Position numbers and translations under genes: made by a program. From Parcubacteria group bacterium GW2011_GWA2_40_23 (GTDB lineage: Bacteria > Patescibacteriota > Patescibacteriia > UBA11705 > JABHMO01): a stretch of DNA of 49,239 nt. This document shows positions 43,909-48,834 of the stretch, piece by piece. Under the pieces are notes generated by a model. The model made no database searches. It had not been told where the DNA came from and saw only the letters and a program-made list of their open reading frames with translations. The stretch spans positions 81,197-130,435 of the forward strand of contig LBYP01000001.1 of assembly GCA_000996245.1 (NCBI GenBank). The letters run 5' to 3'. Every line of letters starts with the position of its first letter. Within the stretch, counting starts at the first letter, position 1.

Positions 43909-44508
43909 ATGAAAATTATTAGTTTCTTGTGTTTGTTTGCAGTTTTGGGTTTTGTTTTTGTTCCTGGTGTCAGTGCTAATCAACCCACAGCTGTAAAATC
44001 ACCAACACAGGATTTTTTGGAAAATAAAGCCGCCATTATCGAACCAGGAGTTTTACCAACTTCTTTTTGGTATTGGGCTGATAAATTTGCTGAGCAGATT
44101 CGTTTTGTTTTTACTGTAGGCAAGGAAGGTAAGGCCGATTATTTAGTTGGCATGGCCAAGGAACGTTTGGCGGAAATGAAAAAGTTATCAGAAGAAGGAA
44201 TTACTAAGTATGCAGATGGGCTTCTGGTTGAACATGATGAGTTAATAAAAAAAGCGCAAGAAATGTATTTAGATTTAAAGGAACAGGGAATAGAAAAAGC
44301 CAAAGAGTTACAGGTCGGTACAGAAAAAAACATTTTGATTAACGAAGCGAAAATCAAATCACAATTGGGTAATGCTGAAACCACTTATAAGGTTAAAGAG
44401 GATTCTGTTGGCGCAAAAGTGCGTGCTTTTTTGGGAACAGTGATGAGTCATTTGTCTTGGAAGAACGAACAGATTCAGGGGCAGAGAGCGGATACATTCG
44501 ATAAATAA
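43909..44508 (+). CDS. Secreted DUF5667-like helical protein
   Basis: A 199-residue exported protein with signal peptide (ISFLCLFAVLGFVFVPGVSA) and the pattern PGVLPTSFWYWADKFAEQIR, then KADYLVGMAKERLAEMKKL, which fits DUF5667 as I remember it. The remainder is a long charged coiled coil. Function unknown; extracytoplasmic. It follows the 43499 gene by two bases. Confidence 0.75.
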   Translation: MKIISFLCLFAVLGFVFVPGVSANQPTAVKSPTQDFLENKAAIIEPGVLPTSFWYWADKFAEQIRFVFTVGKEGKADYLVGMAKERLAEMKKLSEEGITKYADGLLVEHDELIKKAQEMYLDLKEQGIEKAKELQVGTEKNILINEAKIKSQLGNAETTYKVKEDSVGAKVRAFLGTVMSHLSWKNEQIQGQRADTFDK

Positions 44509-44594: not shown

Positions 44595-44606
44595 TCTAAA
44601 TTTAGA
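44595..44606. promoter_or_regulatory. Palindrome TCTAAATTTAGA upstream of promoter
   Basis: A 12-base perfect palindrome ending 7 bases before the -35 of the 44614 promoter. The core is found again at 38135-38144 (9 bases upstream of another perfect -35) and at 48985-48996. It could be an operator or UP-like element. Confidence 0.6.
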
Positions 44607-44613
44607 CAAAAGC

Positions 44614-44642
44614 TTGACAAAAAATAGAATATGTGCTATATT
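44614..44642 (+). promoter_or_regulatory. Consensus promoter of the tRNA-like RNA
   Basis: TTGACA (44614-44619), 17-base spacer, TATATT (44637-44642). Predicted start about 44649-44650, which is the first paired base of the RNA's acceptor-like stem. Confidence 0.88.
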
Positions 44643-44649
44643 GATAATA

Positions 44650-44746
44650 CCGCAGGGCTGAGCGACCTGGCAAAGCCAGAGCCGAGCAATCGGCTAAAAC
44701 TCTCCCACAAGGAGAGAATCGAGGGTTCAAATCCCTTCTCTGCGGC
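44650..44746 (+). ncRNA. tRNA-like RNA without a normal anticodon loop
   Basis: Ends pair as an 8-bp acceptor-like stem CCGCAGGG (44650-44657) / CTCTGCGG (44738-44745). A canonical T-arm GAGGG-TTCAAAT-CCCTT (44721-44737) precedes the 3' strand. Between them are three hairpins: CTGGC-AAA-GCCAG (44667-44679), AGCCGA-GCAA-TCGGCT (44680-44695, a GNRA tetraloop where the anticodon loop would be in a Ser/Leu-type tRNA), and CTCTCC-CACAA-GGAGAG (44700-44716, like a long variable arm). If instead the last hairpin is the anticodon arm, the loop CCACAAG lacks U33. CCA is not encoded, while both tRNAs in this window encode it. Options: degenerate tRNA-Ser, specialised non-coding tRNA, or tRNA-mimic RNA (for example Y-RNA-like). 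Confidence 0.7.
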
Positions 44747-44756
44747 CCGCCTGGTT

Positions 44757-44789
44757 AGGGGACAGCATTCACGCTAGAAGCTGTCCTCT
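44757..44789 (+). terminator. Hairpin after the tRNA-like RNA
   Basis: GGGGACAGC / GCTGTCCTC (one G-U) with a 13-base loop, followed by TTAAATTTG. The T-run is weak but the stem is strong. Confidence 0.65.
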
Positions 44790-44860: not shown

Positions 44861-46126
44861 ATGCACAAAAAAACCATTTTTAAAAATAAGGCACGTTTAC
44901 TCTATATCCCCACACCGGGGACAGAGGCGGTAACTGTGCTTTTTTTATTTGCCGTGGGTTCACGTTATGAAACCCCAGAAATTAATGGCGTCTCGCATTT
45001 TATCGAACACCTGATGTTTAAGGGAACAAAAAAAAGACCAACTACACTTCATATTTCCAAAGAACTTGATGGTGTCGGTGCTGAATTCAATGCTTTCACG
45101 GGCAAAGATTACACTGGATATTATATAAAAATAAATCATAAGCAAGTTGATTTAGCAGTTGATGTTTTGTCCGACATGCTTTTGAATTCAAAATTTGATG
45201 CCAAAGAAATGAATCGCGAGCGTGGTGTGATTATCGAAGAAATAAATATGTATCATGACAACCCAATCATGTACATTGAAAATGTTTGTGAAGATTCCAT
45301 TTATTTCGGTAGTACTTTGGGTTGGGACATAGCTGGTCCGGTAGAAACGATTAGAAAAGTTACGCGCAAACAATTGTTGGAATATAAAAATAAATTTTAT
45401 CAACCCAATAATGTTGTTGTAGCGGTGGCTGGGAAAATTGATACTAAAGTGAAAGGAATAATCCAAAAGAAATTTGCTAACCTTTTTAAACAAAGGGCAA
45501 AACCAGAAATATTTGAACCCTTTGTTTTTGATCAGAAAGCACCACGAATTAAAATAAAATATCGCGATACGAAGCAAGTTCAACTCGGTCTTGGTTTTGG
45601 TGCCTTTGGTTATGGCGATAAGCGCACCCACGCCATGCATTTGCTCACTATAATTTTGGGCGGAAATATGAGCTCACGTCTTTTTATCTCGGTGCGCGAA
45701 AGACGTGGTCTAGCTTACTTTGTTCGATGCTATCCAAATTTTTATCAAGATGTTGGCAATATTTTTATTCAATCTGGTTTGGATGTTTCGCGACTCGACA
45801 GCGCCATAAAAGTCATCTTGGATGAATTAAAAAAGATCAAGAAGGGCGTTACGGCCAAGGAATTGAAGGATGCTAAGGAATTTGTGCGGGGTAAAATGGT
45901 TTTGAATTTAGAGGATTCATCTCACGTAGCTGAATATTTTGCCAAACAAGAACTATTAATGAACGAAATTTCTACTCCAGATCAAAAAATGAAACTCTAC
46001 GATAAAGTTACGACCAAGGAAGTTAGAGCCGTAGCGAATGAGATCTTTAAAAAAGAACGTTTGAACTTAGCTCTGATTGGCCCTTTTCGTGACGCTAAAA
46101 AGTTTCACAAGCTTATTTCTTTATAA
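44861..46126 (+). CDS. M16 family zinc peptidase
   Basis: A 421-residue insulinase-type metalloprotease. The inverted zinc motif H-x-x-E-H is HFIEH at residues 46-50, and the third ligand is in RGVIIEEIN (E126/E127). The C-terminal half has the usual inactive-domain pattern (LTIILGGNMSSRLFISVRER then RGLAYFV). It resembles the single-chain processing-peptidase-like proteins (PqqL/YmxG type). No signal peptide is seen, so it is cytoplasmic or exported in another way. It starts an operon with tpiA, fba and the TPR gene (gaps of 5, 1 and 3 bases). Confidence 0.95.
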   Translation: MHKKTIFKNKARLLYIPTPGTEAVTVLFLFAVGSRYETPEINGVSHFIEHLMFKGTKKRPTTLHISKELDGVGAEFNAFTGKDYTGYYIKINHKQVDLAVDVLSDMLLNSKFDAKEMNRERGVIIEEINMYHDNPIMYIENVCEDSIYFGSTLGWDIAGPVETIRKVTRKQLLEYKNKFYQPNNVVVAVAGKIDTKVKGIIQKKFANLFKQRAKPEIFEPFVFDQKAPRIKIKYRDTKQVQLGLGFGAFGYGDKRTHAMHLLTIILGGNMSSRLFISVRERRGLAYFVRCYPNFYQDVGNIFIQSGLDVSRLDSAIKVILDELKKIKKGVTAKELKDAKEFVRGKMVLNLEDSSHVAEYFAKQELLMNEISTPDQKMKLYDKVTTKEVRAVANEIFKKERLNLALIGPFRDAKKFHKLISL

Positions 46127-48758: not shown

Positions 48759-48834
48759 GCCGTTGTAGCTCAGTTGGTAGAGCATCTCCATGGTAAGGAG
48801 AAGGTCTCGGGTTCGAATCCCGACAACGGCTCCA
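48759..48834 (+). tRNA. tRNA-Thr (anticodon GGU)
   Basis: A 76-base cloverleaf. Acceptor GCCGTTG/CAACGGC, D-arm GCTCAGTTGGTAGAGC, anticodon arm TCTCC-ATGGTAA-GGAGA with GGT, T-arm CTCGG-GTTCGAATC-CCG region, discriminator T and encoded CCA. It reads ACC and ACU. Its 3' UCCA and its anticodon both fit the T-box leader at 4625-4838. Confidence 0.97.

Follow-up and report, generated by a model that had tools for sequence, protein, structure and literature searches.

Locus and predicted RNA

The segment at positions 44595–44789 of the window lies between the genes for a DUF5667 protein and an M16 peptidase. The window is the whole stretch of DNA that was analysed (49,239 nt; positions 81197–130435 on contig C1) and comes from a 1.22-Mb Patescibacteria genome in 37 contigs, here termed G000. 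Candidatus Falkowbacteria records make up most of the closest named relatives of the M16 peptidase. A tRNA-Thr gene is found at positions 48759–48834, downstream of the M16-tpiA-fba genes, and the Uhrbacteria loci L071–L074 have a tRNA-Thr at a comparable spot downstream of M16. Table 1 lists the features of the segment and its flanking genes.

Table 1. Features of the tRNA-like RNA locus (positions in the window)
Feature	Position	Strand	Basis
Upstream gene, DUF5667 protein (context only)	43909..44508	+	Pfam PF18915
Promoter, TTGACA -17 nt- TATATT	44614..44642	+	direct reading; aligned promoters at the M16 locus of G001, G003, G004 and G009
-35 box, TTGACA	44614..44619	+	
-10 box, TATATT	44637..44642	+	
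tRNA-like RNA body, 96 nt	44650..44745	+	fold and shuffle tests; syntenic orthologues
Acceptor stem, 5' strand, CCGCAGGG (position -1 plus 7 bp)	44650..44657	+	pairs with 44738–44745; compensatory changes in relatives
D-arm-like region, GGCU...AGCC	44656..44677	+	partition function
Hairpin with tetraloop at the anticodon-arm position, AGCCGA-GCAA-UCGGCU	44680..44695	+	pair probability 0.98
Variable-arm-like hairpin, CUCUCC-CACAA-GGAGAG	44700..44716	+	pair probability 0.98
T arm with canonical T loop, GAGGG-UUCAAAU-CCCUU	44721..44737	+	fold; kept in the family
Acceptor stem, 3' strand, CUCUGCGG, last base G73	44738..44745	+	pairing with the 5' strand
CCC where CCA is expected	44746..44748	+	direct reading
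Terminator-like hairpin, AGGGGACAGC...GCUGUCCUCU, then T-rich stretch	44757..44789	+	fold; hairpin and T-run at the same place in four orthologues
Downstream gene, M16 peptidase (syntenic anchor, context only)	44861..46126	+	Pfam PF00675, PF05193

The promoter has TGTG upstream of the -10 box and is an 11 of 12 match, which was equalled by one of 200 shuffles; the consensus promoter of the initial annotation is thereby borne out. The first RNA base is 8 nt past the -10 box, and the 5' end is predicted at or near this base. High expression of the RNA may be expected from the promoter alone.

The segment has a fold energy of -67 kcal/mol (z = -4.6), and the geometry of an 8-bp acceptor and a T arm was present in one of 1000 shuffles of the window intergenic region. 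The canonical T arm described initially is confirmed, as is a tRNA-like RNA without an anticodon, the place of the anticodon arm being taken by the GCAA-tetraloop hairpin. In the D-arm-like region, the pairing shown in Table 1 competes with CUGGC/GCCAG (positions 44667–44679), the partition function giving 0.55 versus 0.44, and the GG of this region is unpaired or alternately paired. The 8-bp acceptor-like stem of the initial annotation does pair, but comparison with relatives resolves it into a 7-bp acceptor of canonical form extended by the pair -1:73, which bacterial RNase P substrates often allow.

The CCC at the 3' end is unusual since most tRNA genes of G000 encode CCA. Three G000 tRNA genes of otherwise ordinary appearance (L025, L032 and L048; Thr, His and Pro) are without an encoded CCA, nearly all others having one, and these three imply a CCA-adding enzyme.

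With relaxed thresholds, the Rfam tRNA model gives 15.2 bits for the window RNA (cut-off 29), and ARAGORN does not call it, also when introns are allowed. Over the whole window the sole calls by ARAGORN and Rfam are tRNA-Gln and tRNA-Thr; the tRNA-like RNA is missed by both.

Orthologues upstream of the M16 peptidase gene

Every genome of the window's family (five) and of its order (ten) has the M16 peptidase, and the RNA unit is found upstream of it in five of the ten genomes of the order (G000, G001, G003, G004 and G009). The M16-site RNA spans two families, with G001, G003 and G004 in the window's own and G009 in another. In these four genomes the unit consists of a strong promoter, a tRNA-like RNA and a terminator-like hairpin with a T-run, and CCA is encoded in the copies of G001, G004 and G009. 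In G002, G005, G006 and G008, the intergenic region upstream of M16 is shorter and the RNA is absent.

The acceptor and T-arm geometry at the five M16 sites was reproduced in 0 to 6 of 1000 shuffles per site. All 12 acceptor and T-stem pairs are formed in all five sequences, with double changes in nine; the alignment was assembled by hand from the stems, which biases the paired percentage but does not produce the double changes. The interiors of the five RNAs are too divergent to align, and the acceptors differ inside the order, e.g., CGCAGGG, GGCAAUG and GGAGCUU. The G003 copy is intermediate: its acceptor continues into a helix enclosing two hairpins, followed by two more hairpins and then the T arm.

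The regions upstream of M16 in 60 further genomes of the class contained no copy, which confines the M16 site to the window's order. A BLAST search of the window RNA against 55 related genomes gave T arms of ordinary tRNAs and nothing else, and a pattern of promoter and T loop, applied to the ten genomes of the order, returned only known copies, ordinary tRNAs or mRNA leaders.

Covariance models and extent of the family

Three covariance models were built. R1 represents the acceptor and T arm alone and was trained on the five M16-site RNAs, which, as its own training set, score at least 70 bits and are set apart from tRNAs; it yielded further ARAGORN-negative RNAs within the class. R2 was made from five RNAs sharing one architecture and gave many more matches. 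R3 is the model of subtype I, from 17 of the sequences found with R2, and among 380 genomes of the class it matched 17, with scores of at least 44.6 bits. The R1, R2 and R3 matches together with synteny give a family of 27 copies in 26 genomes, and in the searches made it is limited to one class of Patescibacteria. The covariance modeling from homologues proposed at the outset led to relatives with covarying stems. The patchy detection may reflect gene loss or insensitivity of the models. G070 has two divergent copies, at C1:96989–97082 and C1:583354–583449 (L281 and L282), the second with a clear terminator.

The window copy scores 15.6 bits on R3, below a real tRNA-Thr, and is a member of a divergent second subtype. 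Its membership is based on the position orthologous to that of G001 (subtype I), the likeness of the promoters and the architecture.

Matches discarded as real tRNAs are L213, L215, L216 and L218 from R1 and most R2 matches under about 37 bits. In a sample of 362 genomes from across the phylum, the R3 matches beyond the class reached at most 43.4 bits and were likewise all real tRNA-Leu or tRNA-Ser. One strict degenerate pattern gave no copy in viral contigs, and BLAST gave none in phage and plasmid records.

None of the 27 copies passes any Rfam family. No such RNA came up in the open-access PMC papers searched; an earlier description may exist in subscription papers and preprints, few of which were covered. 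As a tRNA-like RNA family without a match in Rfam or in the open-access literature searched, it is regarded as new.

Features of the 27 copies

An anticodon arm is absent from all 27 copies, and homologues with a normal anticodon loop, foreseen initially as evidence against the proposal, did not appear. The acceptor has the full 7 bp in 26 copies and six of seven pairs in the remaining one. Positions 1–3 are most often GGC, with C3 in 26 of the 27, and pair 3:70 is C3:G70 in 26 and A3:U70 in one. Position 73 is always a purine (A in 19 copies, otherwise G), and -1:73 pairing, with wobble counted, is present in 23. C74 is found in 26 copies and CCA in 16, leaving eleven without CCA. The initial reading that no CCA is encoded therefore holds for the window copy but not for the family. 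The T loop is UUCRA in 21 copies and the RNA length is 82–119 nt. A variable-arm-like hairpin is seen in the window copy and in those of G004, G181 and G375.

In one copy (L276 9949–10059; G005:C3:292948–293058), the T loop is split by a palindromic repeat, CCTGCCTGCCGGCAGGCAGG, and a very similar repeat is upstream of the G001 copy. This seems to be a dispersed repeat that inserts into or near tRNA-like RNA genes.

Secondary structure and covariation of subtype I

The 17 subtype I sequences share a structure of 29 pairs with a three-way junction. The acceptor continues directly into a 6-bp helix that closes the junction, which is made up of a strand rich in A followed by two hairpins; the loop of the first hairpin usually contains GG, with GGGUN as its commonest form. 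After the junction, a short linker leads to the T arm; there is no variable arm. The GG loop may be a D-loop substitute that makes the elbow contact with the T loop.

Changes on both sides are present in 22 of the 29 pairs, and 94.4% of cells are paired. Double-change cells number 100, whereas shuffles gave 26.7 and slid structures no more than 18. Fitting of the alignment to the model favors the structure, but the difference is nonetheless large. Stems without covariation, the other finding foreseen as counter-evidence, are not what the relatives have, as covariation in the stems is strong.

Neighboring genes and inheritance

Clustering of proteins reveals three recurring neighbor blocks, M16-tpiA, ileS-ruvA and ftsK-HTH-rpoB-rpoC, in which several gene names were assigned by eye without a family search. 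The M16-tpiA block belongs to the window's order. The ileS-ruvA block is found in G005, G016, G023 and G115, with ileS in all four and ruvA in three, and parts of the ftsK-HTH-rpoB-rpoC block are in each of G310, G362, G181, G375 and G103. Although the copies of G181, G375 and G103 have low model scores, the shared ftsK-rpoB block speaks for their true membership. These shared, lineage-specific sites imply vertical inheritance of the RNA gene within lineages, with fast divergence.

No protein family recurs beside the RNA gene across lineages, and upstream of the RNA there is no conserved sequence except promoters and that of near relatives. A FemAB gene is inside 10 kb at three of the 27 loci, roughly chance level, and an association of FemAB with the RNA was rejected as showing no excess over chance. 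In two genomes a FemAB-type peptidoglycan ligase gene is near the RNA and ruvA (L278 5766–6737 and L279 5351–6298; Pfam PF02388); the third locus represents a gene fragment near the RNA. About 11 copies have a Shine-Dalgarno sequence and a short reading frame approximately 30–80 nt downstream, e.g., L284, L286, L290, L291, L294, L298 and L299. These short frames look mutually unrelated.

Possible function

The RNAs have an intact acceptor and T domain, mostly a CCA end, no anticodon arm and covarying stems; at the M16 locus they have a promoter and a terminator of their own, and they are inherited vertically at lineage-specific sites. On the sequence evidence, the window RNA is likely to be the product of a stand-alone non-coding RNA gene and to belong to a family of tRNA-like RNAs that do not decode and have so far not been described. 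The family probably uses the tRNA machinery for a purpose other than protein synthesis. The transcript would be matured as a tRNA, by RNase P cleavage at position -1, trimming, and a CCA that is encoded or added, and the mature RNA would act via proteins that recognize its acceptor and T arm. Decoding on the ribosome would be impossible for these RNAs.

The likeliest use, proposed tentatively, is that of an amino-acid carrier dedicated to a reaction outside the ribosome. This is favored by the CCA and purine 73, and is weakened by the divergence of acceptors within one order, which also disfavors one fixed synthetase identity. FemAB-type peptidoglycan ligases, which use aminoacyl-tRNA, would be one candidate class of users. 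The further proposal, that the class as a whole has aminoacylated anticodon-free tRNAs serving a non-ribosomal reaction and with them the first purpose-built carrier RNA lacking both decoding capacity and a message, is somewhat unlikely.

Next, and almost as likely as a carrier, the RNA may be an uncharged mimic that titrates or regulates a reader of the acceptor and T arm, such as RNase P, the CCA-adding enzyme, EF-Tu or a synthetase. The variable acceptor sequence and 3' end with a conserved shape, the very fast evolution of the interior, and a strong M16-site promoter that would suit a titrating RNA are consistent with this, but CCA in 16 of 27 copies and the common A73 exceed the needs of a decoy, and no regulated neighbor is recurrent.

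A message-free tmRNA-like RNA that enters stalled ribosomes is quite unlikely. Such a rescue RNA would resemble tmRNA, which likewise keeps the acceptor and T half alone, and the G001 copy has a weak tmRNA match (11.9 bits, cut-off 47). However, each of the five genomes in the window's family also has a separate, ordinary and full tmRNA gene, and the short interior contains no apparent tag reading frame or resume codon.

It is also improbable that the RNA is a cis-acting leader of the downstream gene, i.e., of M16 here and elsewhere of the small Shine-Dalgarno reading frame after about 11 copies. The location upstream of M16 in five genomes, and the start codons shortly 3' of the RNA in several GC-rich relatives, would fit a leader, but at M16 sites the terminator-like hairpin and T-run, and promoter-like boxes that also lie between this hairpin and M16, separate the RNA from the peptidase gene. 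In addition, the downstream genes are unrelated across lineages, and a convergent gene faces some copies.

A serine carrier recognized by SerRS via a long variable arm, as suggested in the first instance, would fit the variable-arm-like hairpins of the window copy, G004, G181 and G375, but most relatives have no long variable arm and it is missing from the commonest subtype (17 aligned copies); the serine proposal is not supported and is very unlikely overall. A degenerate tRNA gene or an assembly error, which could look alike in a single genome and would agree with the patchy presence and the repeat in the G005 T loop, is scarcely credible given a promoter, acceptor and T arm kept at one site in five orthologues via compensatory changes, and covariation across 29 pairs in 17 sequences from genomes independent of each other.

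The presence of a chromosomal, covarying RNA family in streamlined genomes of approximately 1 Mb suggests a function worth retaining by cells that have shed much else. To our knowledge, bacterial RNAs other than tmRNA that keep the amino-acid end of tRNA without decoding are hardly known. A charged RNA would represent aminoacyl-RNA chemistry apart from translation and would give direct access to the transfer of amino acids outside the ribosome in uncultured Patescibacteria; an uncharged one would be a new tRNA-mimic regulator. Since the interior is rewritten between related genomes while the acceptor and T arm are kept, the family offers a natural test of which part of tRNA is the recognized unit.

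Comparison with known tRNAs and tRNA-like RNAs

The family shares with canonical tRNA (RF00005) the 7-bp acceptor, the T stem of five positions, the UUCRA T loop, CCA and purine 73. Canonical tRNA has an anticodon arm with a 7-nt loop, whereas none of the 27 copies has one and the D arm is absent or rebuilt; no copy passes the RF00005 cut-off and ARAGORN calls none. The variable-arm-like hairpin of some copies resembles that of class II tRNA-Ser and tRNA-Leu.

YrlA RNAs are Y RNA-like RNAs with a tRNA-like module, and like the family they are bacterial tRNA-like non-coding RNAs. They differ in that the family has no Rfam match and usually has an aminoacyl-type CCA end; no Ro60-type gene was recognized among the neighbor genes read. 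The staphylococcal tRNA-Gly is a non-proteinogenic tRNA for peptidoglycan cross-bridges in which the anticodon loop is kept. The role of amino-acid donor outside the ribosome, which the family would share with such tRNAs, is purely hypothetical.

An unusual composition of acceptor and T arm is known in tRNA-Sec, allo-tRNA and selC* tRNA-Cys of metagenomic bacteria, which keep the anticodon and decode (PMC7609411). The unusual composition is common to both groups, but the family RNAs do not decode.

A tmRNA (RF00023) is about 360 nt with a tag reading frame, whereas the family RNAs are 82–119 nt with no apparent tag-coding region or string of pseudoknots. The alanine identity pair G3:U70 of tmRNA is replaced by mostly C3:G70, and none of the 27 copies passes the cut-off of the tmRNA model. 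The two are alike in having their own gene, in lacking an anticodon, in the presence of a helix in place of the anticodon arm, and in keeping the acceptor stem, T arm and CCA.
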